Of a DNA stretch of 64,000 nt, positions 1 to 62,703 are shown piece after piece. This DNA is from Desarmillaria ectypa (lineage: Eukaryota; Basidiomycota; Agaricomycetes; Agaricales; Physalacriaceae), in assembly GCA_030407005.1 (NCBI GenBank), contig JAUDYN010000003.1, forward strand, positions 1,674,001 to 1,738,000, read 5' to 3'. The notes beneath the pieces were generated by a model. The model was not told the DNA's origin. It did no database searches and was given only the letters and a program-made list of their open reading frames with translations. Position 1 is the stretch's first letter. Each line of letters starts with the position of its first letter. The position numbers were made by a program, and so were the translations under genes.

Positions 1-2112
<2,112 letters not shown>

Positions 2113-11211: not shown

Positions 11212-14200
11212 TCATGCGTCTGTTGAACGGAAGGTTAGTTCATGCTTAAAAATGCGCGAAGACATCTACGAACAGTAAGAGGATCCTGTCAGCAACGTCG
11301 ACAGGGCGGATAGTTGATCCTCATCAAATCGTTTCGAGTCTTCATGCCAGGTATCTTGATGTGTCCGCTTGAAATTACTGGCACATTTGCGGACAGTAGT
11401 AGATATGGGTATCTACACGCAGTTAGAACATAATCATCATCAAGTCATGGACAAGGCACCGACAGGATCATATGTGTGTTCAGCCAGAATAGTAGTCAAC
11501 AGATCAGGCATCCACTTTTCGACGGTGTAAGGGTAGCTATCCACCAATGCACATATTCCAAGGATGGCCGCATGCCGTCGACGTATCGCTGAGTTGTATT
11601 CGGGGTCCTGTCTACTTGGAATCCGACTATTCCTGGCTAGCTTGACGAAGCGATCCTACAGAGTGAAATGTCGGAGTAGACCGGTGAAAGGCACAACGAT
11701 TCACATACCTTCAAGATGAGCACACTCCTTCTAGGTGACAGTCGAAGGATACCAGACAGCGTGCTAAGAATGAAACATTCAGCTGGGTTCATCAAAATCG
11801 AACCCGTTGTACATACGTAGCGGCCATCTCACGCACTTCCACCACTTCATCGTCCAAACATTGACAGAGAACCTGATGTTAAATTAATGTTTACTCGAGC
11901 TCTAAGTTAGGAAGACCCACCTCAAGAATTTCGACTACCTTGGCTTCGCTGATCAGAGGAACCTGGCGGAAATAGAATACTGAAAAACACTATGTTTCAT
12001 TTCCCCGTGTAAAACGCATGAATTACATACACACCTTGGACGAGAGGCAGAGCTTTCAGTCGAACTTTCCAGGACTAGAAACTGTCAATATCTGCCACAA
12101 GACGAGATAAAGGTATGCTGACCGGTGATGCCTGGATAGCTTCAAATATAGCATCCAATATAGGATTTATCAGTGCCCTTGGCGGTGTCACACCGCACAT
12201 TCTCACAAGAAGAACGTGTGCCCGGTTTGCAAGCTCATCGTTGTCATTCACTAGCAACGGAATGAGTACCAACAGATCATCATTTCGACTACACATCCTT
12301 ACCTTCGGTGAAACAGAAGAGCTCATGCTAGGAAACGAAATTAAGCGTGATGGCCTGCACTCGCAGTGAAACATACCATGAGTGGTAGGATGTAATCGAA
12401 GACGGAGATCGCATGTGTGTCGTGAACCGACTCGAACAGCCACTTGCATACCATAACGCCTACTCGGTCATATTTGGACTGGAATGCACGAACTCCGGGA
12501 ATTCGTTCCTCTCGCCAAACTTTGAAGCTGTCCACAAGCTCCAGGATCCGCCCTTTATGATATGTGCCTCGCATGCCCATAATGTCATAGTCTACTGGAA
12601 GCATCCGACATTCTTTGACAAATACTTGGGTTGTGGGTATGGTGGGCCGAGGAGTACACTGCGTACGAGATTAGGTCTGGAGATCAAGGATACACCAGGT
12701 CTGCTCACCTTGATCTTATCTGCGAAACAGAGAACTTCGGCGATATATGTGCGGACGTCGTCATGTTCGCTGTATATTTCCTTCCAACATCGCTGAAGCA
12801 CCTCGTCTATCCATGCGGAGAACTTCCAGCCAAGCTCTTCATAGCATGTCCTGAACAAGGATAGAATTTTGACAACATCGAAGGACAGTTCAGCATTGTA
12901 GTCCATCGTTTTAAATGACTCTAAGAGGTAGTCAAAAATGGGCTGCACTCGTCGGGGATCCTTTTTGTAAAATATGTACTAGGAAACATGAGTACAAGGA
13001 TACAGTTTTTTTTGGATGATGCATACCTCCAAAAATGAAGTCCAGACAAGGAGGGTATCGGATTTCAGGTTTGTGTTGATGATTTGCCTGAACAGTGGCT
13101 TAAACCAAGCCCATAAAATCTTCTGCTTGTTCAACGACCAATGTTTCGAACCTGGGATTGGCTTTAACAAACGAAGGAAAGAGCGGTGTTACTACATGCC
13201 TCCAAGCACTCCAGCAACCAACTCCGCGGCAGCTCGCTGCTTGTCTGGCTCCGGATCACCAATCAGAGCTTCCAACGTAGGTTTCAAGGCGGGAAAAGGG
13301 GCGTCCTCAAGTACTTGGACTAGAAGATTGTTCAGTGAAAGCACAGACAAGATACGCTCCAAACGCACATATTGACTTAACGCAAGAGACATTGTCTTGA
13401 GTTAATGAGACCTCGTGATTTTCTTCTGAGAAGTATGTTGAAAGGTTCTTCCAGTATGATGGATCTATAGTCACTGCTCTCAGTGCTTTGATGGCCTCTT
13501 GGCTAGAAGGATCCCATGACTGAAACGTCGACTTTACAGCATCTGGTGGTCTGTAGAGACCAATACTTGTACTCCAAGCCACCCAGCCTTGAAAGAACGT
13601 GTCCAGAAATATCCTAACACGAGAATGAGTGTGGAACTTGCAGCGCTACAATAAATCTTACGGTTGCTTTTGGTTCCACTTAAACGGAACTTTGTAAGCG
13701 GCCAGAAACTTTGACGTTAAAGCCTGGGATGGATGAACGACTATCTTATCTTTCAATGGATTTGTGCTTCTAGCCAGGAACAGGTCTACTGGATTAGGAC
13801 ACAAGGTGCGCAATTTGAGGTTCCTCAAGCTCTTCATGACAGAACGTTGAGCATACTAATTGAAGGTCAGTAAAGCTTTTGGCCATGGCCGACTTGACAT
13901 ACGTAGCGCTGTAAACAATAGATAGTTAGTATACTGTATTTTGAAGAAGGCAATGAAACATACGACGCTCGGATGACTATGATGAGTTCGCTCTACAAAG
14001 AAACGGATTTGCTCTGGAGTCAAGGGCATGTCACGCCTGAGGAGTGTGCGCAAACATCGGATGGCTGCGATTTCATATCGCCAATGTGTCTTGGGAGAAG
14101 TGGCAATTTTCATGACTTCCGAAGTCTGAAGATGTCAACGGGACTCTAAGAAATGTAACAAAAAGTGTAGCGTACTGTATGCTCAGCTGCTTCATTCATG

Positions 14201-17200
14201 AGGCGAACTCGCTTTATTCTAGCTTGCCGACAACGGTTTGTGATGTCTACCTCCTTGGCATCATATGGTACCATGGATTTGACGCATTTGATGGCTCTTT
14301 CCAATGCTGGGCAGGAAACGTCGTAAACAAGGTAGCAGGGCTCGACAAAACTTGTGATGCCTGCACAATGTTGAATTTGCTACCCCTGACGAAGTTGCAT
14401 CTAAGGGACTCACAATTCTCAGAAACTGCTGAGACGCAGTCTTGGATAGAAGGCTACACCAAACCTGGTTAAGAGACAGCTGATGAACGTCTGGAAGGAT
14501 TAACCTTTTCATTATGTTGGCAGCTTAAAAGCTTCGGCACTAAAGTAGCAGCTAGGATCGGCTCTGGATCAAGATATCAACGTTAATCTGGGAACGGCAA
14601 TGCATGACTAACCAGAAATGGCGTATCGGCCAAAGGAAGGGAAATTCAAAGTCCAAAGAGCTCCCTTCATTCGGTCATCGTCGGTACCGGGCTCTAATGA
14701 CTTGTAGAGCGCCGGAAGGGCTCGTCGACGGACACCATCGTAGAGCTGTTAATGGTTACAAACATTATCTATTATGGTAAACAGGCAGCATACCCCACAC
14801 ATGCTTTCCAGCAAATTCTGGCTTGCCCTGACCCAACTCATTAATCAGTCCTACCGAAGAAAAGCCGCGTGACTCACTCTCTTATGACTGCGTAATGCCA
14901 AACAGACCATTCAACAAGGTCATCGATTAAGCTATCTTCGAGGGGGCCTCTGAGACGTTCCAATGAATTCCAACGTAGCCTCGCGGCGTGCTGATACCTA
15001 TATTCAAGTCGAGTCATTAATGACGTATATAAACAAGGGCGGTGTAAGTCTGACCTAGCCTTGCGAACATAAACTGCCCGAGGCCACACTTTTTGTCTTG
15101 CATACTGACGGGAGACGTTCTTTTCCGAATTGAACTGATCTTCGTTCAGAAAGAAGCTGCAAGGGAGAACATGAGGCTATCATTGCCGGTCGATGATGAT
15201 GCAAGTCACCTGTCTCTACTGTCTCCATATTCAAGCAGATAGGCCCGGAAACCTTGTATCTGTTGGGATGTCAGCTCTGTGAGGCGAGTATTGGGGCAAG
15301 ACATACAAGCGTGTGAACAGCATCAACACTATTCTCCTCCCCTTGCTGACGTAGAGATATGGACGCATTGTGCAAGAAGACCCCGAATCTGTGTCTGAAA
15401 CCACGAACATACTTATAACGAGGGTCGCTGGGATTTGTCAAGCAAAACCCAGCATTCTTTGGTTCTACCGACGCCAACATCTCGGGGATCTCATTTCTAC
15501 CCGAAGGTCAAACAATGTATGCGGATGGGCGATATTGACACCTACAGAATATCGCTTGTTTGCCAAGAAGCCCGAATATCATCCTCGGAGAGGTATTCCT
15601 TTGCTATAGTGGGCACCCCTGAAAAGGCGTTCCGAATGAGAACAAGGTGGCTATTATTGAGTTTAGAATACATGTCATGGCCTCTGTAAAATGCGAACTA
15701 ACCGACAAAAGTCGTTACGCCACACGGCATCACGAGGGACTTCCGGCAGCAACAGTTCTTCAAGACGCGACAAAGCAGGCTCGATCAGTTCTCGGAAAAT
15801 TTGAAGGGCGAAGTCGATTTCCTCCGCGTTCGGAACATGCCATGACACCTCCAGAAACGTGTGAATGATGACGGAGTGGCCCTGACAACATGTAAACGCA
15901 CCTCAATCTCCTCGGGTTTGTAGAGTTTGCCCCAGTGACGATGGTGGTTCCACCGAAATTCTACCAAGAACAGTCATCAGAATCGATAAATATACCGCAA
16001 CAGCGTTTGAGAATGTACCGTCACTCTTCCATTCATCTGGATTTACAAATTTGTTCTCCAAAGGATATGTGTGGGTGAGTGTTAAAAGCATGCTTGACAA
16101 CATTTTTCCCAGCCAAGAGTAGCCGCGTTTTGAGTACGTCTTCGAATGCAACAATTGAAGTAAAGACATCAATTCATCCTTATATTTCAATATCTGTAAC
16201 GGTTAAAGGTAGGTTTTAGAGAGGAAACTAACTGTGAACCGACGCTTACCGCCTTGCCGTCACTGGAAATCATTCATGAGTGCAAATGAATCATAAAGCA
16301 CGCAGCGACCCACTTGTACACAGTACCCCGCAAAATGGCCAAATCTAGATCGATTAGCTCATGTTAAATATGCCATCGTCGTGAATATTGCTCGACATAC
16401 TCCAATGCAAAGTAGCATCCGAGGGAATAGGCATCGAGTCTGATGTTGTTCTAAGCGACGAGGCACCATTCTCCAACTCCGTCCGGATATTCCGAGAGCA
16501 AAACGGTAGAAACCTCGCCAAAGTCTTGGCGGGATCCGCATTAGCTATGCACTCAACTAACTGATGAATAGCTCGGACGGCGTTGGGTCGCACATTTGTG
16601 CTCGCGTAGTCAAAGACCATATTAAGGACGAGATCAAACAGCGGCTCTGACAGATGAACGCAGATTTGACTGCAAGCGCCGGCGACAGCGTCCACCACCT
16701 GCACTGTAAATAAATGATGAGTTACGGAACAACTCCCAGCTGGAATAAACTAGACCTTCAACAGCCCCTCCAGATGATCCGTTCGGACCTTCTTCGGGCA
16801 GATTCTCAAGCAACTGTATCACACGACGAATAAAGCTTGAAACCCAGTCAGCGAAACTTCCTGTGGTGTCCCTCAACAGTGTATCTTCATCTTCGTTGGA
16901 GAGTCTCAGCTCCTCGTCGACAAGATCGGAAGGTCCACCGTTAGCTAAAGACGGCCGAGTCAAGTTTGTCCGAGTGGGAATAGTGACTTCAATGTCCGGG
17001 GCACTAGACATCTGGTCTTCGCCCATCGTCAGGTCACCGAACTTGATATACTGAGATATTTCCACCAAAAAAGCTGTCGTGCACAGCTGCAATCGTGTGA
17101 AATTTGCATAGTGCATACATTGAAGTTTCATAGGTCTCACCGTTTTCGAAGGATCATTCTACGACAGATTTAAGGTCAGTCCCATGTAGTGATATATGAT

Positions 17201-19505
17201 GGAACGCACCAGATCGATACCAGGGATCAGGAGCTGTAGTATAGGTACGAGGTACTTACCTCCCGGATAGTAGACTTCGCGAGAAACGATAGCCGGCGCA
17301 ACAGCACCCAAGGCTTTTATGACGGCGATCGTCCTTTGGGTCTGACAACGCGTCTGGATGCAGGAAATCCTAAATAACAAGGAAACACACCTCAACGAGC
17401 GCCTCGAGCGAAGGCACTGCACGCTGAAGAACAGGGTGTAATATGAGGTCAGGTTCCATGACACTCATGGACTTCAAACAGCTCTGGATGTTTGAGACAG
17501 TATTGCTATCCTGTGAGAACATTGCCAGAAGGGCTACAGTTCTCAAACACTTGACGAGCTCTCGTTTCATGGTTCTTGTAAGCCTTCGGTTCTGACCCTT
17601 TCGATTGGGATCAGGCGTTCACTGCATTGAAGAGTTACGAACCAATGGAGTTTTGCAATCAGATCGTTGTTCCTCATGCCATCCTGACCACACTATGAGA
17701 CCGAGGGCCGTTGTAGAAAAATATGCTCCTTACGCTTGTTGAAATCGTAGACAATATATTTGATGAAAGCGCTCAGCTAAACAAAGTGTAATCAGCACGA
17801 AATGTACTTTCAAAGACATCATATATGCATGTGGTAATGCGATGAAAGCGTTTAGAGTCAGCGGAATACGTACATCAGTAGTCCATGCCCCAGAGTTTGA
17901 CGGATGGAAGAAGCTTTCAGTCGATGCGATCAATTTGGCTAGAGAATCCAAAGCCTTCGATCCAGCTAGATATGTCTTCCCTTTAGATGGCGCGGTTTTC
18001 CCCAGCGGGACAGAGAGAAATTCTTTCAAAGTGCTAGACTGAATTTGCGGTGTATTCATTCCAGATGGTAGTGGTGTCATCAGAGGCGTAGATACCGTGG
18101 ACGAGGGGCTGGGGAAACCATCCGGAGCCATTGAATAGACAATGATACGAGCCAGAGATGCTGAGATCATTCTTAGCCAAGTACATATAATATCCAAACA
18201 TGACGTACGTATTCTCCAGTTGGCTTTGGGAAGACGGCCTATCTCGAATCCCATCTGATTGTCTGCAGTTGGAGCCGTGCTTAGAGAGCCGGTGTCTGCC
18301 AGAGGTATCTCTATAGTATTTATTAGCGCTGTACCTGAATTGAACACGAAATTCGTACCCATCGACGCAAGACATTTACACATCAGCAGGCCCCACTCAT
18401 GTTCAGTGAATATACCCACATCTTTGTAGAGACCATGCCAGACATCATCTTCCTTTAGGTCTTCTTGTGACCACCTTGGCCGTTGCTCGCCTTCAGACCT
18501 TTCGTCGTCAGGTATCTCCGTAAGCTTACGTGGGTCACTGACTTCAGGTGCAACGTGCATTTCTGTCAATTTCGAAAGAAAATGCAACATCCGTTCATCA
18601 TAGGCGTAGGAGTTTATTGATTCCCACATCCGAAGAAGCATAGGGAGATACGATTGGGGATGGGTTAATGGAAGGAAGGTAAGAAGGTAATATTGCGCAG
18701 ACAATACGCTCTGGAGGGGAATCACAAAGGTGAGTATACGCATAGGAGGAGCTCACGACGATAAACGTACATCCAGGTCAGTCCCGTTGAACTGTGGGAC
18801 GAAAGTGGAAAGCATCTCATCGATAGCGGCGGGATGAAAAAACTTTCGAGAATTCTCTGCCATGTAGCCCATACACCACGACAGTTGCCTAATAACGCGT
18901 CGTCAGTGCTTGCACCCAACTAACAAGGCCCAGACATACGTATACTCGAACTGCCTCCGACTCAAAAAGAGATCTTGCTTCAGTATGTCGTACATTGGCC
19001 TCCACGGTAGACGCATATCCTCAATAGAGATACGTTTCTTAGATTTTGTTAAAAGCTTGAACGCATCTGAACACGTCGCCACCATTTGAGTCGACATGCC
19101 CGGTATCGTGCTAACATAAAAATAGATCTTGGCGAGACGAATCCTTTTCTCCTTGGGAATGGGATACTTGAGCATGGTCCAGCTGAAACACGACATGGAA
19201 TTTATTAGCGGACGCGACAGAAGGTGAGTCAGTACGCACTAATAACTGAGCATACTATCCCACTGCAGGAGCCCAACATCATAGTCTCTCGCCTCTACGC
19301 ATTGCACGATGCGAAGAACGATGAAGTCGAGGAGTTCCATCATGCTTGAGGTCGATTCGATAACATACGGGAGCGATTTTGCGTAGCATTTGAGCTTGTG
19401 AAGGTCATGGTCGCTGAGGACACGGCTGTCAGTAACGTTGCCCGAGAAAGTAGGTCTAGAAGAAGATTTGGTGATATAGAGAGAAGAAACATCTGGCACT
19501 GTCAT
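11212..19505 (-). CDS. Proteasome activator Blm10/PA200, paralogue A
   Basis: Giant HEAT-repeat protein that caps the 20S proteasome and opens its gate. The N-terminus (MTVPDVSSLYITKSS) leads to LLQWDSMLSY, then KYPIPKEKRIRLAKIYFYVS, DMRLPWRPMYDILKQDLF, RMLHFLSKLTEMHV and EHEWGLLMCKCLASM. The middle has LFDLVLNMVFDYASTN and LARFLPFCSRNI. The end is the conserved C-terminal domain (DUF3437 type), with VEVREMAAT, FKRTHQDTWHEDSKRF and FDEDQLSALSTLL. Read straight through, the frame ends Ser-Tyr-Cys-Ser. Splicing a 54-nt intron (11220-11273, branch-like CTAAC) gives Ser-Tyr-Tyr-Ala-stop, the HbYX-type tail used to dock on the proteasome. Some 25 exons are inferred and individual borders may be off. 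The copy at 54.8-62.7 kb is its paralogue. Confidence 0.88.
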
Positions 19506-19721
19506 GGGGAAGATGAAGAAAGAAAATGGGAGGATGCCGCTGAGACGATTGGGGTTACGTCCGCTCTTGGGAATTGGTCAGCGAAGTCTCACTGTCAGAA
19601 ACTTTGCTCAATGTGACATCCGTAAAGCGGCTAGCAGCAATAGATTGACAGAACGGATTTACAACCATTTACTACTAATAACAGCGGAGCAGGCGCAGAA
19701 GTCGAGCAAATCCAGAAAATC

Positions 19722-20822
19722 CTACGGAACCGCCATCAACGCCGCGTCTTGCAATTCTTTCAAGGCTCTCTCCCGTACCATCTGCCAGACTCCATTTCTC
19801 TGGGCCTTGATCTCCCCCAATCCTTCTCGGATCTCCTGCAGACGCTCGACATATTCTCTGCCGTCGTCTTGCAGCTCTCGCAGCACGCCGATGGAGCGTT
19901 CAAGATTATCTTGTTGCGTTTCCGGCGACGCGAAATGTGAGGGCTCGTGCACCGGTGGCTCGCTAGAGTATGAGAACAAGAACAGCTTGTGGATAGGTGG
20001 CGTCAGATCCGGCGCACGAGCGATTCTCCTGACCCTGTCCACATCTTCAGGACTATCGCCATCTTCGTCTTCGCGTTTCGTCACGACAGAGACATCAGTG
20101 GGTCCCGGCTCCGCATCCTCGCTGATGACTTCCCATAAACGACCCAATGCCTTCTTCATGTTTGCCTCGCCTTCAATAAGACTATTTGTAGATTGCTCGA
20201 GTTCTTCGAGGAGGCTGGACCTGAATGTATGTGTCACAGCCTTGTCCATGACAAATGACGAGTAACTATAGTGCTGGGACGTCGGCGGCGGGTAAGGTGA
20301 AGTAAGAGGAGGCGATGAAGAACGTAATAGATGAGGAAGAGTGGGAGGCGATGGTGATCGTTTTGTTTGCGGCACCAATTGCTTTAGACGCTTCCGAGCG
20401 CGCTCTTCCGCCTGTCAAGTAGAAAAATGAAAACGGAATTCCACCCTGAACGTTTCTGTTTGCGTACCTGCCATTCATCCATGCCTGGGCCCCATGCGCT
20501 CAGTTTTCCTCGTCGCACCCATCGTGCACCTTTCACGTCTTTCTTGCCCCAGTTACCTAGAGCCGTGCCTGTAGCCAACTCCTCAGAATCCGAATCGCAT
20601 CTATAAGCGGGATAAAACCAAGCATTTTGATCGCTGAGTGGCAGTAGGTCCTGGGTTCTGCGGCAAGTAATTGAGTGGTGGGACGTATATCAGAGGGACG
20701 GCGTACGAATTGTCTTCTGACGGGCCCAAACGAGGACGTTTGTGTCCGTTAATATTAGGAGGTATATGCTGACTGCTGGCTGGACGCGGCGGTAGATGAT
20801 TTGGATGTGACAAGTCCGACAT
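19722..20822 (-). CDS. RXT2-like protein (probable Rpd3L/Sin3 complex subunit)
   Basis: Splicing gives about 330 aa. The N-terminus MSDLSHPNHLPPRPASS and the stretch VPLIYVPPLNYLPQNPG are low complexity. They are followed by CDSDSEELATGTALGNWG and KKDVKGARWVRRGKLSAWG, which I read as the RXT2 N-terminal domain of the Rpd3L histone-deacetylase complex. Later comes a Ser/Pro-rich linker, an acidic region (EDEDGDSPEDVDRV) and a helical charged tail, ERLQEIREGLGEIKAQRNGV, ending DAALMAVP. The RXT2 call rests on the short N-terminal block only; another chromatin-linked basidiomycete protein is possible. Its start is the ATG at 20822; an upstream in-frame ATG exists near 20882. It lies about 215 bp upstream of Blm10-A, on the same strand. 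Confidence 0.55.
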
Positions 20823-21025
20823 GGCTCTGCTCAACAAGTGCCAAATTCCTTTCACAAGTCCCCGCCGGCAATCGGTCGGCATCTCAATTATTTGCCGACT
20901 CTAATATGAAGCATCGTTTTAAGAAATGGCATCTACTGCAGAAGTTGCAAATATCTAATAATTAGGCTAATGTTACAATAAAAAAACCAATAAATTACAG
21001 ACACAGAACAAAGTCATCCTCCGTT

Positions 21026-22260
21026 TCATGTAAAATATTCGGAGTATGAAGAAGGCGGAAGTTCGCAAGGCCATTCGCCACTTCTAATGCACCCTTCGAA
21101 CACGTCTTCACATGATCTGAAGAGGTCTATAACCGCTCTGGCTGTTTCAAGCTGTGAAATGAAGGAATCAAGGGTCCAGGTCTCTCGCAGCGTAAGGGGA
21201 AGCATACCGAATCCTCGTATTGCAGCCCGATATCGCGTCCCATGAACAAGTTTACAAGCAACGATAGTTCAACGATTGTTGGAGATTTTAGCTTTTGGCG
21301 CAGAGGCAGGAATAGGGCAAGATCTCGTGTTGCAATAGCTGGATGTGTCAGCCCGAGGACCTATCGATTTCGTCAGCTAGAGCAAGACCAGACAAAATGA
21401 TGGAGTACCGATAAGAAGTCCCATAGACGATGTCCTACGATAATTTTATTTCGAACGATGGAGGAGACACGTGTTTGAACCTCTTGTAGAGTAGGTGCTA
21501 TTTGAATGTCAATCAAAAGAACAAGCAGGACTCTGGACGAACTGACCGCCCATGAAGGTCGATGGACTGAAGCCAGTTTCCTCTGTTCTGTAATTTTCTA
21601 CTTGGTGCCTAAATTGTTGTCAGGGCTTGTAGAGTAGAGCATTGAAAGGGCGCCCACGTTGGTCGAACAAGGGTGTCTAAAAGAATTCGGCCCCGATAAT
21701 CCGTAAGGGAAACGCGCCTGATAGTATTGATCAGAAGCAGGAGACCATATGACCCGACTGTTCACATACGCGACCATGGGTATTTGCTTGAGGATGTCCT
21801 GAATTCTAACAGTTCCCATATACACATGGAGTTGTGAAACCGCGACATAACTGCAGGCTATAGCACGAGATAAAACAGGGAAGAATACAAGAAGGTACCT
21901 TTGTGCAGGGAAATAGCGCTGCCTAGATGGCTCAGACACGTCGATGTAACGAACAGCACTAGGCCCGGCTTGCGCATTATGCGAATTGCCTCTCGGAAAC
22001 GAAGACCTTGAACAAGGCAGAAGCAGAGTGTTAAAATGATTAAAGAGACTTTGAGAGCAAGGAGATTGATACATTATACTTCGAAATAGAGATAAGGAGC
22101 ATTACCAGCAAACAAGAAAGAGGGTCCATCAACAACAAGCTGTATCTTTGAGCATTTGAAAACGAGTACATCAAGCAAGATTTCACGCCAGCGATGGGGA
22201 TTGGAGCAAGAAGTAAAGAACCATCGTTTGACGGACCTGACGTGACACCAACTGGAGAAT
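21026..22260 (-). CDS. REX-type DEDDh 3'-5' exonuclease-like gene, 5' half uncertain
   Basis: The 3' half is clearly a REX/ISG20-type DEDDh exonuclease. Exons give VSLTDYRGRILLDTLVRPT, VENYRTEETGFSPSTFMG, KIIVGHRLWDFLSVLGLTHP with Exo II residues, AIATRDLALFLPLRQKL and SLETARAVIDLFRSCEDVF (Exo III region), ending SYSEYFT before TGA at 21026-21028. Upstream exons read IQLVVDGPSFLFAG and FREAIRIMRKPGLVLFVTS, which I cannot place in a family. I could not find the catalytic Exo I block (ALDCEM type) in any frame that connects the two halves; around 21760-21790 frames are interrupted by stops. So the gene may be degenerate, or contain an unusual splice. The coordinates of the start are approximate. 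Confidence 0.55.
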
Positions 22261-22742
22261 GAGCCCTTCATCAAAAGTCGCGTACTAGGGAGTCTGGCTA
22301 GGTCATATTCAGGGGATCGATATCCAACTCATGCCAGGAACAAAATGAGGCAGCAGGTAGATTAGGGGTTCCGGTTTTCAGTCACGTCGCTTCCGGACAT
22401 TCGAACGGTGCTTGACTATGCCATATACAAGCAGTATTAGGTCCCTTCAACGTTTTGACAGGTATAAGAAGTCAAGAAATAGAAGGGACGCTTCAACTGA
22501 TGGAGGCAATACAGAATCTTTTTGCTTCATCTCAATTGGTGTCCAAGATGCGCTCCCGCCAAACGATCTTGAGCCAACCACCACATAATACATTGACATC
22601 TAATGGTAAACACATACATTTATTCATAATCAACTTGGCGTACATTCTCCGTCCGTTCTTCAATGACGTGAACGTTCATCTACATACAAGCAATCAATGC
22701 GGCGAAATGGATATATGTCGCTGGAATCGACTCACCATCTAA
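22261..22742. other. Intergenic region
   Basis: About 480 bp between the exonuclease-like gene and the 3' end of biotin synthase. No recognisable coding block, repeat or RNA was seen. Confidence 0.4.
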
Positions 22743-24308
22743 TTATGCTGAAGCCCCCAGATCTGCTTCTTTCGAGCGCCTGAATTCAGCTCGGTCCGGG
22801 ATTTCAATTTGGGCACCTTCTTTCCGGGCAACGCTAACCTGTTCGAAGCTCCGCATACCTTCCAGACCCCAGCGATCCATCATTGCTTTGTCCTGTTTGA
22901 CTTATCGTTAAAATAGGCCGCTCACCTTCAGCGTAGAACTTACCTCGTCCCATGGAGAACCTGCCAACCGTGTGAGTGCGGTTTCCAATTCTTCGATCAT
23001 ATCGACTTACAGGGGGTAGTCAGCATCTGTTCGCCCGTAAACACCGCATTTGCGCCGGCCATGAAACACATTGCTTGCTCTGCTTCAGTAAGCGTGTTTC
23101 TACCGGCTGAGAGTCTGATGATAGTGGCTGGGAGAACCATCCGTGCTGTAGCAATCGTCCGAACAAGAGTCTGATGGGAAACAGGCTATAACAACTATGA
23201 GAATAGAACCTTGGTGAAAAGAAAACAATCTACTTCATTGTTCTCAAGAGGAGTTCCTGGAATGGGCACCAAAGCATTGACAGGGAAGGATTCCGGGTGT
23301 TCAGGCATCCTACAATCCGCCGTTTAATGGGGTCTCAAGACGTACTGGTGACATACCTTGAAACCTCCCAGATGAGCCCGACTCTGTCTGCGTCTTTTTC
23401 ACCAAGGCCTAATATGCCTCCAGAGCACACACTAATACCAGCCTGACGGACTGCCTCTATGGTGTCTAAACGGTCATCATAAGTCCGAGATGTAATGACC
23501 TAAAAAGATACTGAGAAAGCAGTCCATCATTTAACGAGCGAAGGAAGGCACTTCAGGGTAGAACTCTCGCGAAGTGTCGAGGTTGTGATTGTACGCAGTC
23601 AAACCACTGACAGGACTCCTTTAATTTCCCGTGCAAAGCAGATACAAGAAAAGTAGTCCTTACGCCTCTTTGAGTTGCCGAGCCTGCTCTGGGGACAACA
23701 TACCAAGGGTGGTACAGACTTCCATCCCCATGCCGCGGACCTCTCGGACCATCTCCAGGATTCTTTCAAAGCCTCTTTTACGTCCAGAAAGATCGCGCCA
23801 TGCAGCACCCATGCAGAAGCGGGTACTGCCATTTTCCTTTGCCTTGCGAGCGGCCTCTATCACGGGCTCGACATCGAGGAGACGAGAAGCTTTAGTGCTA
23901 GTATCGTGCTGGGACGATTGGGAGCAGTAAGAGCCTTATGGTGTGGTTCATACCGGACTTGGACTGACAGCGAACGCACTTACAGTCTTCAGAACATCCT
24001 CCAGCTTCATAAAGCGAGGTTCATATGGATATATTTAGTCAATGAATTGGGGGAGATAGCGCGGACCACGACTTACTTTTGATGCTCATGAGAGTGCAGA
24101 GCTGTATTTTGTTGGGATCATGATGCTGTCTGTGCACCGAAGCAGAACGGAAGACGAGATCGAGCAGAGGAGAATCGTAAATCTGCTGGATTTCTTGTTT
24201 CGTCCAGTCGTGTCGCGTCACCCGGGTGGACGGGAAGGATGCTGGGGAAGCATGGGTCGCCAGTGTTCTTGTCGACGTGAGTGATATCCTGGCAGCAGAG
24301 CGAAACAT
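22743..24308 (-). CDS. BIO2: Biotin synthase (radical SAM, mitochondrial)
   Basis: Converts dethiobiotin to biotin using radical SAM chemistry and two iron-sulfur clusters. The N-terminus [20 protein letters not shown] is a typical mitochondrial presequence, followed by [20 protein letters not shown] and [13 protein letters not shown] 21-nt micro-exon (23984-24004) supplies TGGCSED. Splicing on gives CSEDCSYCSQSS, with the CxxxCxxC cluster ligands. Further blocks are [87 protein letters not shown] and [20 protein letters not shown]. The C-terminus is [14 protein letters not shown]. The protein is about 380 aa, as expected. No other biotin-pathway gene is in the window. Confidence 0.95.
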
Positions 24309-24915: not shown

Positions 24916-24932
24916 GGGAAAAACTTCGGAGG
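24916..24932 (+). repeat. 17-nt direct repeat, copy 1
   Basis: GGGAAAAACTTCGGAGG, identical to positions 26120-26136, with poly-A/T-rich flanks and a nearby GACCAAAA/GGTCCAAAA-like stretch at both sites. It may mark copies or ends of an old repeat. Confidence 0.55.
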
Positions 24933-38898: not shown

Positions 38899-40302
<1,404 letters not shown>

Positions 40303-52666: not shown

Positions 52667-54764
52667 TTAATACTGGAAGAGATGGACGTGTTAGCCGAGG
52701 GAATGGAGGGTAAAAGAAAAGGAAATATACCTATGAGATAATTAAGACGTAGGGTCGCCTCCGATGAATGCGTGATAAAAGATGGGTAACTTTTGGGAAT
52801 AATGAGTAGATGCTGAAAGCGTAAGTGAGCAGATAGATATCGAGGACGAGAGGGACGCCGACGACGGTGATGACGACGACAGCAGGGCGAATTCGGGAAG
52901 CGAGAAAGGGCAGATAGGTATAAAAAGCGTAGGCAGGGTCGTGAGCGGATGGTCGTGGTAGAAAGGAAAGATGGGAACTGAAGGCAAGCGCTGTGACAGA
53001 AATTGGAAGAGCACAGCTGGAGTGTGAGGTTAAGAAGGAAGAAGGCAAGGCAAACGGCTGCCTTCACCTAACGAGTTTGGTCAACGTTTTGATCGCAGAC
53101 AACGTGCCCGGCGTTTGCCAATTATTAATCACGTCCTGCGACTCGGCGCTAGTCCACTGCAGTCGGCAACCTGAATAATCGACAGAACACAACCTCGACG
53201 ACAGGGAGCGACGATGAGCACAACCTCAACGACGGCGAGCAAACTTTTGGGATGGAATGCTGTCCCCCACTCGGAGCTGTCCATCATTTTCACACGTACT
53301 TTTCAAACTCCGACCTGCAAATCGACTCTTTTTGGATATTTTCCCCGTTCAGACTCCGGTATCTGGCTTGGCCCAATTCTCCATTCTTAGGAAATTCACT
53401 CCCAATTCTTCCTTCATTCTCTTGCTCAAACGAATCTTCGTTTGTCACTTCCAACTTTCAACACGTGGTATTCGCGTGCTTTCATACACAACTTCCCTGA
53501 TTCGGATTTCTACCTTGATCGAACCCGAACTTTTTCTTTGCGTTCTCCAACAAGTTAACATCTCGTATAGTCTCCATCGATAGCTCTTTGTTCCTCGTCA
53601 CTGATGCCCCTCTTTCACTGTCAAATGTCATCAGGTCTGTCCTATGAATCCGATATATCTTCAATTCTGATTCAGGAGATACGATTCCCATCCCCCGGCG
53701 GCGCTCTGGCCTTCTGGACTTTGCTTTCCGCACGTTCTCTTCCTGGTAATATTATCCAACCCAAGTTCTCAACACGTTCAGCGCTGATCGATGTCTGATA
53801 TCGTTGTGTCGCCATCTAGCAGATCGGTACAGCAGCGGAGATCTCTTGAACGTTGGGGTAAATCTACTATTGTAATATTTTTCGTCTGGGGCTTGTCTAA
53901 TTTTTGTATCAAGAATCTGGGAATTTGCGAGCATCGAACATTACTTACCAAGTTTGAGTGCCGTCGTTCGAATGGCGGGACACAGCCCCACCCTTCCACC
54001 GATACGGTTACCATGAATGAATGTAGGACCAGCGCTAACAACACTTGATATCGGTATGGACGCAATAACCAAGCGGAGGACTTTGAGAGGCACCATCTAT
54101 TTAGAGAACCGTTGGTTCAAAGTCAGCGAATATGATCGAGAGATCTAAAAATGGCGATGGCCGCTTGGAGGCAAATTTCAACAAGAAATTATATTCTTGG
54201 GTATACAGTCCTCGCCGTCGAAAACTTTTACAAGACTATTTATCTCTCGCTTCTGAAACGAATGGAATCTAGGCGAACATTGATTGGATACGGTCCGCTG
54301 CTTCGCAGTCATCAATTCAGCGGCTAAACGTAGCGCGAGTGAAAGGGTCATTTAAGCCATCAGTGGTGCTATTCACGCAAAGGATAGCTGCCTTGTTGGT
54401 TGACTCCACAATCGACTTGACTGAGCGTTAACCCATTAGCACAAGATTTTATAACCCGACGCGCGCACATACGGACCCGATCATTCAGATTTTCCCCCGC
54501 TTCTTCGCCTCAAAGCTGATAGGGTTGCGATACTTACCGCGGGACCGATTCTATTTCAGGGCGTGGCAAACACGCATTCATCCAACCTCTTTGCGGAGTA
54601 CATAAATCAATGTAAACCCTTGGATTCTCAGGTGGATATTGTGTATTTTCCAGAGTCGTTGCAACCCTGACATTTCGCTGCAGCTCAACAGAAACGTAAG
54701 GAAATTATTACGATTGGGGAATGACTACAGGTACAAAGTTCATAGATGTCAGGGCCAATATAAA
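52667..54764. other. Long gene-poor region with fragments of reading frame
   Basis: About 2.1 kb between the CCCH gene and the second Blm10 gene. From 52,681 to 53,070 the minus-strand frames are probably the leader of the CCCH gene. A plus-strand frame from 53214, interrupted by one TAG, runs to 53558 and is listed separately. A further plus frame at 53791-54048 has no recognised family. No RNA gene or known repeat was seen. Confidence 0.45.
53214..53558 (+). pseudogene. Possible interrupted ORF (one in-frame TAG)
   Basis: Starting at ATG 53214 the frame reads MSTTSTTASKLLGWNAVPHS, then ELSIIFTRTFQTPTCKSTLF and GYFPRSDSGIWLGPILHS. A TAG follows (53388-53390), and the same frame continues for 55 codons (EIHSQFFLHSLAQTNLRLSL...) to TAA at 53556. 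The TTAG could be a splice acceptor, but the nearest donors give introns of 32-44 nt and shift the frame. I do not recognise a family. It may be a decayed gene, a real gene with a different splice, or chance. Confidence 0.25.
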
Positions 54765-57700
54765 TCAAGCATCTAAAGATTTGCATTAGCACGAGCCACA
54801 TTGCTTTCGCGTGATTACTTACAATACGAAGTCCCAACCAGCATGGTTGACAAGCTTTGTAACTGATCTTCATCGAAGGCTTGCTGATCCTTGTGCCAGG
54901 TATCCTGTAACAGAGGTTAGAACACGGGTTGCGGTCAACTAAGTAGCTCTTTGTGATACCTGATGGGTCTACAATGGGGCCGATCAGTAGAGGGCATTGT
55001 GGTAGACAGGAAATCGTTACCTTCTTAAACTCTGACGCGCATTTTCTAATTGTGGTTGAGATGGGAGGAGGGTCAGTAGCATGAGGAGCAAGCACTGTAA
55101 TGGCGATCAACATCTGGCAGATGACTGGGGAAACAAGGTTGTGTAGTCTATACCTTCTGTAAGTGAGGGCAACCATGGCTCCACGGAGTAGGGGAAACTT
55201 TCGATCAGAGCGCACAATCCTAGTATAGCAGAATGCATGGACCGAAGGGAATCGGCATACGAAGGATCCCTGCGTGGAGGCAACTTAACCTTGCGAGTCA
55301 TTGTGATAAATCGATTCTGCGACCCTGTAAGTTCAGTGCCTAGATTTCGTAGAGAAAGTCAACTAACCATCAAGGGGATGATGCTTTGGCGTTGCGAGCA
55401 TCGAACAATCCCTGAAAGTGACTTCGAGGCCATTTCCCGAACTTCGACATTCTCATCGGCTAGACAGTCCATTAACATGTCCATAACTCCGGCTACACCT
55501 TCCGGTGATATCGACAGCAGATTTCGATAGAAGAAAACGACCAGCGGAGGAAGCGCTTGAAGGCGAATGCGCCAGGACTGCATTTACAACTCATAGTCAG
55601 GCAAATTTTCTGATAGCAATAAAAACCCGCTACCGCAGATGATTTGATGGCGACGACAAAGTTGTTCAGAATGGCTCCAATATACTCTACCGGTGGCGTA
55701 AAGGCTGATAGCACATAAAGAACAGCGGTAGAATAGGTTTGGAGTTCCACATTATCATTGAACTCTGTCATCCGCAGGAACTCAGGCCTACGACACCATT
55801 ACTATTCGCTGCAAGACGTGAATATGCCTACTCACATCAAAGCCACAGCATATGGCAAGACTAGAGTCGCCTGTGGACTGTATGACGATACCCATATCCA
55901 CTGAAGGACTTGATGAACCAGCGTCAGGAATGACTACCACGATAAGACGGACTGTACTAACGCGACAATGCTACTTTATCATACTTTTGAAGAGCTTTTA
56001 ATTAGATACGAAACGAATTCTCCATTTGATGACGTACCTCCGATTTGCTGACCCAGGGCGGTGGTAGACGTTGCTCTCGCCATTGAGGCATTTGTACCAG
56101 AATGTCGGTAATTTGATTTTGAAATCGGGCTTGGCTACACTTCCCTTCAATACTACGCAGAGGATTATAGACGTGGGGACTTACCGTATAAATAAGGGAT
56201 CATCTGATTCCTGACAAGCGCGTAAGAAAAGCTCTGTAGACGGGTAAAGAGGTCGCCATTGCATGTTGAGCAAGGTTGTAAGGATTTGAGTGATGAGCCC
56301 CCGTATCTGGGTTTGCGGAAAGAGATTTAGACAAAAGAGGGTAAAAACCAAAAAGGGCCCTCGAACCTCAGCATAATTGGTGTTTGCATTCGTAAAGAAG
56401 AAACTAATGAAATGATCAGCTCTGCGCTGGAATACATACTCCGCTGAATCGGCCAAGATCCCAAATAAACTGAGGGCCTTACTCACTACGTAGACTTAGT
56501 CAGCGCAGCGAACGATAGAAAGGGCAGTGGACTTACTGCCGAACGCGGAATCCCCACTGAAATCGAGAGGTAGAGATAAGATCCAATCAATTAGCGGCTT
56601 ATTACGCCTTGGATCTCGATCTTCTAAGATGCTCTAAATGACGCAAAGTATCGGAAAGGAGGAACGAATACAGCGACAGAAACGCACGGCAAATGAGGTC
56701 TCCCAAAGGGTTAACGTATCGGGCTTAATTTCGGCAAAAATGCGATCCAATCGACTGCGAACCCAAGCCCATAGTTTGTCCGATGCATGTTTGGGCCAGT
56801 GTTTCGCTCCTATAAAGAGCATTGGAGTCACATTATAGGTGCGACAAGAGAAGAGAAACCTACCACGTATGAGGCCAGTCAAAAACTCGCCACCAGCACG
56901 TTGTTTAAATTTATCAGAATCTGATAAAAGCGGGTCCATGATGCTGAGCATAGCATCAAGGACCTCGTGTTCGAACATTTTTACTACACCCCAAAAGTCA
57001 ACATTGCACAGAAGGATAGAATATAGACTACGGGTACCTAGCCTCTTGATGTATGCAACATTCTCTAGCCGGAGATCGATTGTGCTGCCGTTTCTATTGG
57101 ATTCTTGTCCCCACAATGCCGACAGATCTTGGAAGTATTTTTCAGTGGTAACACCCTCACGAATCACGTGAAGCGAAGGCTGCGATGCTGCTTCCCATGC
57201 AAATACTGATGCATCCGTAGTCACAGCCTTATAACCTTGTACCGTCGGTGCCCAAGATACGAACCCCGTACGGATTTTGTCGACGTAAATAAGGCTGTCT
57301 GTCCTTTAGCGGATTGATACACGCAGCGAACACGGGGTACGCACTCAGATGTTTGATCGATAGGGTGCTCGAACCTTTCGAGAAAATTGGGGGCATCCGT
57401 GACGTTTATACTCTGCACCAAAGGATTCTTCCACCGATGAAGCCATAAATCCGATGCATCATCCGAGAAGGACCGGAACTTAACGTAGGTCAGCAAATAA
57501 GCTATCCCTCTGTTCAATAGATCGGTTGAATGATGGAGAACAAAAGTAGATATCTTACATACCGTTGCGCTTCTACGCGGATGGTGGGCTGGGGACTGGT
57601 GGAATACTCGTAGAAGAAACGGGCAATATCAGCTGATACTGGCGTGTCTCGTCGGAGTAAGGCCACCAAAAATCGACACGCCATTTGTACGTATCTCCAC

Positions 57701-60700
57701 TGTGATAAAGTTTCATCAGGCAAGACTTCTATAAAGCGACACGCAACTGACATGAGCTTTGGGCCTCAAAGCAATTTCCAGTATCGATGAGACCTGAACG
57801 CATCATGTGAGACAACAGTGCACGATGCAGGCATAAATCCATACCGTTTGGGCATGGATCTCATTACGGTTTGCAACACGGCGTGGGGTCTTGCTGATGG
57901 CTTCCTGGAGCAGCCTTTGATCGATAAAGGAAGGGAGAAATTCGGTCGCTAGGTCGTCGAGTGCACTTTCGACTGCAGGTACATCAAGAGAATATGCGTC
58001 TGTATGGATCGCATCTTCATGCAGATGCGGCAGACAGTCTACAGCAAGATTGTTCACCAACTTCTGTATGGAGGGCTACAGATCAATGCGCGTGAGTCGG
58101 AGATTCGTACGGCCAGGGATTGCGAGAACCTTTTCCTCGTGTTGACACTCCAGTAGGGACAACAGATAGCGTCCGTGTGCACCTTGGTCTGATCAAGGAT
58201 CAGCAAATATTTTCATCGACTAACCCTGAAGTGGTCAGCCAGACTTACCACCCAAAGCATAAGAAGCTACTCATCCCGTTAGCTTGGATGCTGATAGTCG
58301 TTTAGAGAGACCGTACCAATTCCTTTATTCCACAACACATACAAAGCGCCCTTCATTCGATCGGGATCGTTTCCTTTTGAAAGCGCAGCAAAAAGGGACG
58401 GTAACGTGAAACGAGTAGATCGAACATAATACTGCAGCCAAAATGGAAAAAGATCATGATAGGACTAGCACATTAGACGTACCCCGAAGGTACTGTGTAG
58501 CACAGCTTGAGCCTGTCTACCGATACATAAGCATGAGATAGAATGATCATAGACAGGTTCAAACTTTTCAACTTACCGACGTATTCGCGTATATGGTGAA
58601 AGAGCCATCTCAATCAGTTCTTGTATTAGCTCATCGTCAAGGCGCGATCGACGACGATACAGGGCATGCATGTATACGCGGCCACAATGATACATTTGTG
58701 CGCGCTTCACGAATACCGATCGTGAGTTCTCCTTCTGCCCGTTCCATATGCGGATGCCACTAGAGAAAGTCAGATCGGATAGGTATACGCGATAATAAGC
58801 GAAAGAACACTGCTTACTCTCTTGCAGTCACGTAACTTTTTTGGACAGACTCGTAACCTTCCTTACTTAAGCCATAATCAAGCAAATAGGAATCGATGGC
58901 CTTCACAACGACACTAACAGCATCTATGTGATCTTCTCCCTCCGTATTCTCACGCAAGGTCAGAGCAGCCCTTTTACTGATTTCACCAAATCGGATTCGA
59001 TGGGCAGCGGCTTTTTGGTATCGAAGGTCAGAGGGATCGCAAAGAACGAAACCAGCCTTCATATCAAGCTTGCCCACAAGAAGTTCTTGGCATTCAATAT
59101 CATCGTTTATGCAGGAGTTCGCAACCTCCTTTTCCTGGTCCAGAAGAAAAGTGGGAAGGCCGCCCCAAATCGCTCGGCAGGCATTCAGGTACCTGCCCGG
59201 TCAACTGATTAAAAACCGCGATCTTGATGCCTAGCACACCTACCTGCAGAAGTCATTTCTATCGCTGCTGTTCCAGTTTTTCGTCGTTTGCAGCAACCTT
59301 TCGATATTGTCCAGTAGTGGAGATGCGACTTTGTCGAGAATTTCCAGCACGAAAGCGATTTCATCGTTTGATGGCACTAACCCCAAAAAGCTAAAGAAAG
59401 GGGAACAGATAAAAAAAATAATAGAAGCATACCATGCCATTCAATGGATACATCTTGGGCTTCGTATAGTTTTCCCCAGTGGATATTGTGATCTCTCTCG
59501 AAGTCTGCGTGTTACAATGGTAAGAACTAGCGCTCGCGTAATGACTAGGCTTCATACCTGGACTTGCCCATTCGTCGGCATTTACAAAACGACTGTTGAC
59601 TGGGTACACCCCCACGAGAGTGTGAAGAATGCGGCCAATAAGTCTACCGGCGCTGCTGTATCCGCGTTCGCTCTTTGCTTTGCCAATGAGGAGCACGATA
59701 AGACCAAGTATTCGATCCTTGTGCTTCAACACCTAGGATATTCTGGAATTAAGTCTCGATTAGGTCTAAGGACATGGAAAAGCCTACGATAGAGCCCCCG
59801 TAACCCAAGCATCCCCGCAGAATTGCAATGTCTATAAAACGATTAGATGCCAATCTGGTCACAGAGAAAACAGCCTACGCCAGTGGAAAGTGGTGTCTGA
59901 TGGTACAGCAGCAGTTGGTGCCGTGGTGCGAATACTTGAAGCTCCGTGATGCAATTCATCTTCGATCTGAGAAAGGCAGAACGGCAAAAACTTGGCCAGA
60001 GTCTGCTCCGCCCGAACTCGAGCCAAACAAGCTACCAGTTGCCCGAAGGCTCTGACGGCGTTAGACTTCGCATTGGTAGACGCATAATCAAACACTAGGG
60101 TCAGCACCAGATCAAACAGTTGATCCGACAGATGCAGGCAGACTGCATCCATCATGGCCTTGACGGACTTGAGAACACTCTCTTCTTGTTTGCCACCAGT
60201 GGTGTTTCTCTTACCTCCTTCCTCGGGGAGATTCTCGTAGAGTGCGATAACACGGCGGAACAGCGAGGTAACCCAATCTAATGTTTGATCAGTAGCTGAT
60301 GATAGGAGAGGACACATTATAACTACCTGCAAAAGTAGCAGTGCTGTCGCGCGTAAGTGATCGCTCATCTCCCCTACTGAGTACAGGCGTAGGACTCTCT
60401 ACGCCATCGGGGAAGCGCGTGTCGTCTTGGTCGACTTTCATCATTTCATCACCAAGTATATCATCGGTTAGGGGCGCTCCAGATTGGTGAATAGAGAGAT
60501 CGCCAATCTTCACATGCTGGATAGCAGCAACAATGAACATGGTAGTACAAACAGTCTTGTTGGGATCATTCTGCTAGAAATTAGTACAAAAGATGGAGAG
60601 ACTAAATGATTCAGTTACCAGATCGATACCAGGCAGACATAATTCCAACAACGGAAGCAGGTGCTTTTGTCCACCAAGCCAGATGCTCTCTGTAACGAGC

Positions 60701-62703
60701 GGTCGTGCAATCCCTGATAACATGCTCAGGACAGCAGTGGTCCTATGAGTTTCGTTCACGACCTCTAGACCGCCATATACGCGCTCTAACAATTCGGGCA
60801 TGATCAGTGTAGGCTCTAACAAGGCCATACCACGTAATGCTCCTTGAGCGAATCCTACACATATTGGATCTTTGGAGAAAAGGGCTAGAAGCGCAGGAGT
60901 GCGAAGGATGTTGACAAAAGCCCGCGAAATGCTGGGTGTAAGCCGTTGTGTCTACGAGGAGATGTCATACAAGTTTAATTGTCCATTTGACAATGAGGAC
61001 GTACAACGGGTGTTTTACAGTCCAGTTTCTCTTCCTGCTTCAGGCGCTTGGCGAACTCGGATGTCAGTCGATGTAGGAAGGTCGTTAACTACAAACACCA
61101 GAACTAACCGTTTAGAAAAGATAAAACCTAGATCTTGAGACGCAACGTACCGCGATTGTCCAGGGTCCAGAGTTGGATGGGTGAAAAAAAGATTCCGTGC
61201 TCGTTATGAGACGTTCTAGAGAGTCTAGGGCCTTTGAACCAGCGATGAAACCACTCGGAGACGATTGACTAGATCCTTGCTGCCCGTTGAAACTCTGTCG
61301 CATTAGGCCATCGACAGATATCGAATATACGAAAACCTTCGCAAGAGAATCTGGAATCAATGAAGATAGTGAGAATTGATTATCAACGGCCGAACGGTTG
61401 ACGTACGGTATCTATCGACAACTTTCTTGATCTTGAAAGAGTGTTTATCGGCGAGTGTGTCCGCCTGTCCAGCTGTGGTCGATGCACCCTACGTCAAGGA
61501 AAACGTTCATGATTCTATCGGCAAGGTATACTGATTTCCTTACCCTCGTTGCGCCGACGGGAACATCTGCCCAGCATCAGTGACACGTCTGAAGTGAGTA
61601 CAACGGAGCACTCACTCATAGATGCCAAACCCTTTCCAACCAACATGTTCCATTCTGGCTGAGTCCATATACCAATATCTTTCCACTTGGCTCCGCCGTC
61701 TTCTCCTGCCAAGCCAAATGGACCGGCGACATGCTCCTCTGATAATTCCCCTGACATGTGCAACAGTCTGTCGTCTACCAAAGCCGAATTAATAGCTTCC
61801 CAGAATTTGAAAAGCGAAGGTAAATATAGGTGGCTATGACTTGGTGGAAGGAAAGAGGTCAAAATGGGTATCATGACCAGGTATGTCTGTTGGAGGTATT
61901 CAATGTTATTGTCAAGAGCGAGAGAAATCATTAGGACATGCCTCTTTTGTCACTAAAGGCAAAAAGGTAGAGAGCATGTTGGGAATGTCTTGTCTCGAGA
62001 AATAACGATTGCAGTGTTCTGCCACGTACAGAAGGAGGCTTACAGTTGAACGCCTAAAACATACTATGAACAAGATGAAGAATAAACGACAGGAGAATTC
62101 CATTTACGATGAATCGTGCACGCGAGCTTTGTGCCACAGATGAGTCTGTACGCTATGCCAGAGAGGCTCCCATGGCAAGTCAAGATCACCGTACTCAAGT
62201 TTACGCTTCATCCCAGACTTGTTGGATAGCAAGCGGGTGATCATATCAGCCCAGCTGCGAATGACGCGCGGTTCTATGCCCGGGGTAATACACAACCCGT
62301 AATACAAACGAACTAACTTGGCGCGAATAGATTTGTCCATAGGATATCTCATCAGCAACCAACTGTAGAAGAATAAGAACACGTCGAAGGGGAGAAATGC
62401 TAAATGATTGTACCATTGAAGCATCCCATCCCATGTCGTGAGCACGAGCCAGTTCTTAGCCTTGGCACAAATGAAGATCTTGCCGACTATGTTCTCCAGC
62501 TTCTCCTGCATATCCTCGCACGATTCACACTCGTAGGGCAGAGAATCCAGATACGACTGGAGGTGAGACTTTTGTTGTTCGAGAGACAGTTCCGAAGTGT
62601 CGCCCGGAGAGTCAGATATCGTGTCGTCATCCATATCCAAGAGAGAAGGCTGTGGAAGACCTATTAGGTCGCCAGAAAAAGGTAACTGTATGAGGGGATT
62701 CAT
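54765..62703 (-). CDS. Proteasome activator Blm10/PA200, paralogue B
   Basis: Second giant HEAT-repeat 20S proteasome cap, on the same strand as copy A. The N-terminus is MNPLIQLPFSGDLIGLPQPS, then YLDSLPYECESCEDM, LTTWDGMLQWYNHLAFLPF, LLMRYPMDKSIRAKLVRLYY and GDLDLPWEPLWHSVQTHLW. The middle has LFDLVLTLVFDYASTNAKSN and RFLPFC-like FLPFCLSQIEDELHHGASSI. The end is the conserved C-terminal domain, ENVEVREMASKSLSGIV, HQDTWHKDQQAFDEDQLQSL and STMLVGTS. A naive end reads Tyr-Cys-Lys; a 50-nt intron (54773-54822, GTAAGT..TTTAG) instead gives Tyr-Tyr-Ala-stop. No exon break needing a frameshift was found. An upstream in-frame ATG lies at 62832. The middle block looks roughly 60% identical to A by eye; other parts are more diverged. 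Confidence 0.88.

Follow-up and report, generated by a model that had tools for sequence, protein, structure and literature searches.

Two Blm10/PA200 genes on one contig

The window, the whole stretch of 64,000 nucleotides of Desarmillaria ectypa DNA analysed here, carries two genes of the Blm10/PA200 family. Both lie on the minus strand, A running from 19505 to 11212 and B from 62703 to 54765, with a gap of ~35.3 kb between them. The genes and their surroundings are as follows.

11212..19505, minus strand: Blm10/PA200 paralogue A, 45 exons, 1,998 aa (spliced alignment to P0121)
54765..62703, minus strand: Blm10/PA200 paralogue B, 41 exons, 1,934 aa (spliced alignment to P0001)
11212..11219, minus strand: last exon of A, completing YYA and the stop (sequence reading and spliced alignment)
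54765..54772, minus strand: last exon of B, completing YYA and the stop (sequence reading and spliced alignment)
19506..54764, no strand given: interval between A and B, ~35 kb, with unrelated genes for choline kinase, DnaJ, SET, protein kinase and MFS proteins (Pfam)
9569..9913, minus strand: translin exon, 3' neighbour of A (PF01997, E=1.3e-25)
50882..52459, minus strand: CCCH zinc-finger ORF, 3' neighbour of B (PF00642, E=3.5e-11)

The initial annotation described two full-length genes of this family on one strand about 35 kb apart, sharing landmarks from end to end and yet clearly diverged, and this description holds: the coordinates were confirmed and the reading frames of both genes are complete. 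Six-frame comparison of A with B gave collinear matches over the full length, the FDYASTN block and the QDTWH..FDEDQL block near the C terminus among them, and identity was 37.3% across 1,889 aligned residues. The pair is therefore not due to chance, to a duplicate created in assembly or to two alleles, and the last two are also excluded by the position of both differing sequences on one contig.

Protein-guided spliced alignment gave 44 introns in A and 40 in B without internal stops. Acceptors are all AG and donors GT, with one GC exception per gene. These splice models are computed predictions guided by related proteins, not transcript-derived, and they supersede ab initio models of 1,862 and 1,865 aa that missed exons. 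A is 94.5% identical to P0121 of Armillaria borealis (1,888/1,997) and B is 94.8% identical to P0001 (1,811/1,911), with zero stops in both cases. Both predicted proteins end in SYYA, which is reached through an 8-base last exon after a terminal intron with identical alignment column and phase in A and B.

In a Pfam search of 40 ORF pieces of the window, translin was found next to A and a CCCH zinc finger next to B, and both neighbourhoods recur in other species: an A-type gene model of Fibroporia (P0253) is fused to translin, and CCCH fingers are fused to B-type models from Fibroporia (P0251) and from Tetrapyrgos (P0006). Recent block duplication, which the initial annotation also rejected, is excluded by the 37% identity and by the unrelated genes between and around A and B. 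A search for a yeast-type PACE promoter element shared by A and B gave no signal (16 matches with one mismatch allowed versus 13.5 expected).

Family membership and copy number

In both A and B, the C-terminal PF11919 and the middle HEAT region (PF16507 and PF23096) score above the family cut-offs. Both lengths are inside the full-length range of ~1,800-2,150 aa, and both proteins match the chains of human PSME4 and yeast BLM10 in the PDB along most of their length. A profile built from 24 proteins of the two types matched human PA200/PSME4 (6KWX, 6REY and others) end to end with E=1.2e-192, and the full-length relative Blm10 of Saccharomyces cerevisiae (4V7O, 9D0T) with E=7.1e-106, the latter alignment not extending over the 20S loop region. 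From these relationships we infer an alpha-solenoid dome fold for A and B. The C-terminal HbYX motif (YYA), present in both predicted proteins through the terminal intron, also ends yeast Blm10 and is the gate-opening tail of human PA200 according to PMC7077846. A further likeness to human PA200 is a loop at the position of human Thr562-Lys574, which inserts into 20S. Asn1716, the residue described as crucial in the bromodomain-like region of human PA200, is aligned by eye with Ser in both A and B and gives no distinction between them. Moreover, Guan et al. reported that the bromodomain-like regions of Blm10 and PA200 do not align, so this residue is not family-defining.

Across the whole 40.6 Mb genome, all matches to PF11919 (4), PF16507 (11) and PF23096 (2) lie within A or B. 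The eukaryote survey by Fort et al. (2015; PMC4453063) gives one PA200 gene with one PF11919 domain per genome, in line with the statement of the initial annotation that the family is usually single-copy. This genome departs from that expectation with two PF11919 genes, unlike human PA200 and unlike yeast Blm10, which comes from a lineage reported to have one gene. No sign of a parallel duplication of the 20S core was found in the genome: PF00227 gave 28 exon matches, grouped by hand into 14 loci, there were 6 matches to PF10584, and PA28 was confined to a single locus. With only 14 PF00227 loci, one set of 20S core genes appears to serve two caps.

Distribution of the two types among relatives

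The comparison comprised 120 listed relatives of A and 120 of B, giving 121 proteins per type with the window genes. These 240 relatives, together with A and B, split 121/121 with a support of 1.0 and a branch of 1.25. Both types occur in at least 63 species names among the matches listed, and hence the pair is not peculiar to the D. ectypa genome. The initial annotation considered that most relatives might share a known ancient pair. Its presence in relatives looks correct, but the pair does not seem to be known, for a literature search for two Blm10/PA200 paralogues in Agaricomycetes found no report. Database entries from Agaricomycetes, many of them named proteasome activator BLM10 or subunit 4, are the same proteins as A and B; their annotations are silent on two clades, and the two-clade split is new here.

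Among the matches listed, equal-length contigs carry both types in 51 of the 63 species names, and in 8 pairs with serial locus tags the spacing between A and B is 7-24 tags. For listed proteins known only from the source 'lgn', the longest contig has less space beside the coding sequence than introns like those of A and B would take up in 8/10 B-type and 4/7 A-type cases; with too little room for introns, these proteins look like spliced transcripts. YYA stands at the end of 68/121 A-type, 85/121 B-type and 12/27 outgroup models, and its absence from the others probably reflects mainly terminal introns missed by annotators.

Dating the duplication

A and B have 22 introns in common at the same column and phase, whereas random placement in 2,000 trials gave a mean of 0.29 shared introns and a maximum of 3. 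In rooted trees (FastTree of 65 and ML of 34 sequences), Pucciniomycotina, Ustilaginomycotina and Tremellomycetes diverge ahead of the A/B split, and A and B are sisters with the lineages of single listed copies outside, two alternatives being left by the SH test. The PSME4 proteins of Cryptococcus/Kwoniella, Tilletia and Rhodotorula belong to the same family and, unlike A and B, branch before the split. With the exception of Tilletia horrida, each named species among these outgroups is represented by one entry in a length-filtered list that does not by itself prove single copy. That one copy was horizontally acquired, or is a decaying pseudogene, is hardly credible: no supporting point was found, sister position inside Basidiomycota and common introns argue against transfer, and a pseudogene is excluded by two intact frames with close identity to relatives.

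The tree of basidiomycete Blm10/PSME4 proteins that the initial annotation proposed thus separates A and B clades and places the duplication in the Agaricomycete stem. The ML tree supports a split after Tremellomycetes with UFBoot 99, SH-aLRT 98.7 and AU p=0.982, whereas the support in FastTree is only 0.756. A duplication before Tremellomycetes or earlier, followed by loss of one copy in other lineages, would agree with this lower value and with the SH test, which keeps a sister position of Tremellomycetes to A (p 0.297) or to B (p 0.148). In addition, A is the better-scoring match of the two for all 27 outgroup proteins and for human PSME4, and B is the better-scoring one for yeast BLM10. 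We nevertheless regard such an early date as rather unlikely, since the AU test rejects both placements at 5% (p 0.036 and 0.024) and strongly rejects a split older than Ustilaginomycotina (2e-6 or less), and the order of outgroups agrees with the species tree, as single-copy orthologues would. Taken across tests that support it unevenly, the rooted trees point to a single duplication in the stem of Agaricomycetes, later than the branching of Tremellomycetes.

Reciprocal changes in loop and solenoid

Three features bear on how the copies differ.

16757..16807, minus strand: loop of A aligned with the human 20S-inserting loop, no GGK (alignment to human)
60180..60236, minus strand: counterpart loop of B, basic, with GGK (same alignment)
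18420..18509, minus strand: A residues 277-306, within a stretch kept by A and outgroups and absent from B (two alignments)

Among the listed sequences, GGK is present in the loop segment of 119/121 B-type and 25/27 outgroup proteins (where the loop is basic) and of 0/121 A-type proteins. Mean net charge of the loop is -1.27 in A (106 measurable) versus +1.06 in B (120 measurable). Complete loss of the basic motif could mean that one copy, most likely A, left the 20S and, while keeping the PA200 fold, now serves some other purpose such as that of a scaffold or an inhibitor. This seems improbable, because YYA is kept in A of this genome and in more than half of the A-type models, the NLPEE stem of the loop is retained in 104/121 of them, and the human PA200 loop is likewise acidic as counted from the alignment. 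Hence, a basic loop is not required for 20S docking everywhere.

Segments present only in A numbered 18 in the first alignment, and 13 of them, after merging, were rechecked in a second. There, A13, A24 and A167 were not gaps in B, and A388 and A635 were weak; we rely on A271-306, A205-209 and A1395-1399. Divergence thus looks reciprocal in the alignments, B having dropped segments still present in A and the outgroups, and A the basic GGK motif.

Retention for redundancy or dosage, with differences due to drift, would fit two clades of similar evolutionary depth (1.00 and 1.07) whose fixed changes are balanced in polarity. Listed A-type and B-type proteins are fixed differently (>=90% in both clades) at 76 sites, of which 14 are A-like, 17 B-like, 5 other and 40 unclear, and substitutions alone therefore mark neither copy as the changed one. 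We consider this reading unlikely, given so many fixed sites, the clade-wide loss of GGK and deletions common across orders, and the long retention of both copies at 37% identity.

Two probable caps for one core

Intact genes, shared introns, the tree, and copies and linkage in many species argue for common ancestry and retained proximity. In our preferred explanation, which we hold to be probable, A and B are working 20S caps that arose from one duplication in the Agaricomycete stem, remained linked since, and have divided or changed their work. According to this model, an intron-bearing gene would have been duplicated in the stem lineage and its copies would have stayed near each other. Most likely, one and the same 20S core is bound by either protein, by way of the C-terminal YYA and of a second loop reaching the inside of the alpha ring; by analogy with human PA200 and yeast Blm10, docking would open the gate and admit unfolded proteins via the dome. 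In this model, B kept the ancestral basic 20S-facing loop and trimmed solenoid segments, and A kept the segments and replaced the loop. Both copies would then have been retained because their work was divided or changed. Such reciprocal changes suggest that A and B probably differ in tightness and mode of 20S opening and in the cargo admitted, and we infer that function or 20S specificity differs between them, as the initial annotation had suggested. According to Fort et al. (2015; PMC4453063), 20S substrates of PA200/Blm10 are still debated.

More tentatively, A and B may be two ubiquitin-independent caps that share one 20S core, the basic gate-side loop of the ancestor being kept in B and rebuilt in A. 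They could then set two gate states or substrate classes, possibly with mixed A/B-capped particles, and labour could have been divided class-wide since the stem, an arrangement not known to be described for PA200 elsewhere.

Annotations of 'PSME4' in Agaricomycetes mix two paralogues, and PF11919 is no marker of one-to-one orthology in this class. Agaricomycetes, with a pair of PA200 paralogues that is ancient, linked and reciprocally changed, offer a natural experiment on the roles of the loop and the solenoid.

Two intact Blm10/PA200 genes

The initial annotation was right in placing a pair of Blm10/PA200 genes on this stretch: A and B are both present with intact frames and are collinear end to end in a six-frame comparison. 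Their structures, from spliced alignment to the nearest protein, are as follows.

Gene models and terminal introns
19505 to 11212, minus strand: Blm10/PA200 gene A, 1,998 aa, 44 introns
11220-11273, minus strand: terminal intron of A, leaving an 8-base last exon
62703 to 54765, minus strand: Blm10/PA200 gene B, 1,934 aa, 40 introns
54773-54822, minus strand: terminal intron of B, leaving an 8-base last exon

Neither model contains a stop codon; every acceptor is AG, and every donor is GT apart from one GC per gene. A is 94.5% identical to its relative in Armillaria borealis (P0121), which suggests a genome within Armillaria or close to it. In the genome searched (40.6 Mb, 32 contigs), all matches to the family domains PF11919, PF16507 and PF23096 fell inside A or B. 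Ab initio models of both copies matched PDB chains of human PSME4 and yeast BLM10, and a profile built from 24 proteins of both types gave E=1.2e-192 for human PSME4 and E=7.1e-106 for yeast BLM10. Judged from their sequences by domains, length and tail, A and B are members of the Blm10/PA200 family.

The C-terminus of both proteins is SYYA, and in both genes the final Tyr codon is split by the terminal intron and finished by the last exon. YYA, the HbYX tail, is absent at the end of 52-53 of 121 A-type and 36 of 121 B-type models in the hit tables; so short an exon may hide the motif, and automatic annotation may often miss the tail.

An ancient pair across Agaricomycetes

The best 120 of 292 matches to A and the best 120 of 391 matches to B do not overlap. 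In a FastTree analysis of these 240 relatives with A and B, the two types split 121/121 with support 1.0, separated by a branch 1.25 substitutions per site long. The pair had been read as something other than a recent block duplication, which holds, and as an oddity of one genome, which does not, both types occurring under at least 63 species names among the best 120 matches per copy. Each row of the 63-species table was confirmed by BLAST against A and B. The two types lie on equally long contigs in 51 of these species; the remaining 12, one of them a row merging two Termitomyces isolates, include fragmented or different assemblies, and linkage there is not refuted. In eight species with serial-looking locus tags, 7 to 24 tags separate the two genes (Fibroporia 7, Trametes sanguinea 8, Leucocoprinus 11, Collybiopsis 12, Tephrocybe 13, Tetrapyrgos 15, Tricholomella 15, Hohenbuehelia 24).

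Since relatives are the best 120 per copy, species with one type only are no evidence of loss. Laccaria, four Amanita, Tricholoma matsutake and four Psathyrellaceae including Coprinopsis cinerea are in the A list and not in the B list (P0126, P0141, P0151, P0159, P0161, P0168, P0170, P0190, P0203, P0205); B may have diverged faster or been lost in them, the B list being a best 120. Hymenopellis radicata has two A-type entries (P0152, P0182) on unequal contigs, identical at 1,498 of 1,648 aligned residues, which are alleles or a recent further duplication.

Pfam searches on 40 ORF pieces of the window identified the neighbours.

Neighbouring genes
198-542 and 1783-2178, minus strand: SGT1/ecdysoneless protein pieces
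3008-3649, minus strand: TIM21, weak match
5982-6503, plus strand: FAA hydrolase piece
9569-9913, minus strand: translin, 3' of A
Between A and B: choline kinase, DnaJ, SET, protein kinase and MFS pieces
50882-52459, minus strand: CCCH zinc-finger ORF, 3' of B

In Fibroporia, an A-type model is fused with translin (P0253) and a B-type model with CCCH fingers (P0251), as is the Tetrapyrgos B-type model (P0006). These fusions are probably annotation errors, and they show that the translin and CCCH neighbours recur in Agaricales and Polyporales. Two B-type models of Rhizoctonia solani (P0254, P0264) carry unrelated enzyme domains of haloperoxidase and pyruvate decarboxylase type, and are probably joined gene models.

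Fort et al. 2015 (PMC4453063) give PA200 genes as unique within each genome, with PF11919 once per genome; their main-text passages on this do not name the basidiomycetes surveyed. We found no report of a second fungal Blm10/PA200 copy in the open-access literature searched. Duplicates are not unheard of in the family, since zebrafish has psme4a and psme4b.

Age of the duplication

A third protein search reached Pucciniomycotina, Ustilaginomycotina, Tremellomycetes, Rhizoctonia and Clathrus, the last two of which belong to Cantharellales and Phallales. With Pucciniomycotina as the root of a 65-taxon tree, the remaining outgroups diverge ahead of A and B, Clathrus groups with A and Rhizoctonia with B, and A+B excludes Tremellomycetes with support 0.756. 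Maximum likelihood on 34 taxa and 1,893 columns gave this last grouping SH-aLRT 98.7 and UFBoot 99, with 98.4/99 for Clathrus with A and 100/100 for Rhizoctonia with B. Duplication after the Tremellomycete split had AU p=0.982; joining Tremellomycetes to A (AU p=0.036) or to B (AU p=0.024) is retained by the SH test (0.297 and 0.148), and duplication before Ustilaginomycotina had AU p of 2e-6 or less. From branching order and AU values, the most likely history is thus a single duplication in the stem of Agaricomycetes. A and B have 22 introns in common by column and phase where 0.29 would be expected, which means that these were present in the gene before it duplicated. A very divergent protein of 2,568 aa with PF11919 and PF16507 (P0284; 71 bits to the query) formed a long branch in the 65-taxon tree.

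Divergence of the two copies

Of the 1,836 columns that can be compared, 345 carry one shared residue and 76 carry different residues at a level of >=90% in both clades; by the outgroups, 14 of these differences are A-like, 17 B-like, 5 neither and 40 unclear. Measured from the duplication, the two clades are similarly deep (1.00 for A, 1.07 for B), and crown depth is somewhat greater in B (0.66 vs 0.51). Outgroups mostly have 14 of 18 A-only segments, against one of six B-only segments. A271-306, A207-209 and A1396-1399 are clearly absent from B in a second alignment of fewer taxa, and are also absent from both Rhizoctonia proteins. Three other A-only segments, which that alignment did not uphold, were withdrawn.

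Human PA200 inserts the loop Thr562-Lys574 into the 20S (PMC7077846), and in the profile alignment the loop after ENLPEE sits opposite it. There the basic motif GGK occurs in 119 of 121 B-type proteins, in none of 121 A-type proteins and, among outgroups, in 25 of 27. Rhizoctonia (B-type) has GGK; the A-type Clathrus model lacks it and its sequence is odd at the loop. Over the 14 residues that follow LPEE, net charge averages +1.06 in B-type (120 measurable), +1.8 in outgroups (20) and -1.27 in A-type (106). However, the human loop is acidic too, as counted from the profile alignment, which counts against a simple story.

Implications

Introns total 2,297 bases in A and 2,134 in B. For relatives (best 120 per copy) known only from the source 'lgn', the longest contig has less non-coding space than these introns need in 8 of the 10 B-type cases and in 4 of the 7 that are A-type; P0001, the nearest B relative among the matches listed, leaves 144 non-coding bases. 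Our guess is that 'lgn' denotes transcriptomes, and this would be an indirect sign that both copies are expressed in relatives.

The genome has 14 PF00227 loci (exon matches grouped by hand) and one PA28 locus. By analogy with human PA200 and yeast Blm10, A and B would each cap one end of a single 20S core set, and the gate would be opened by the YYA tail and the loop, both contacting the alpha ring. Differences between the caps would then lie in the gate-side loop of A and in the trimmed segments of B. The interpretation should be widened from a single genome to an ancient, class-wide pair, with function kept cautious.
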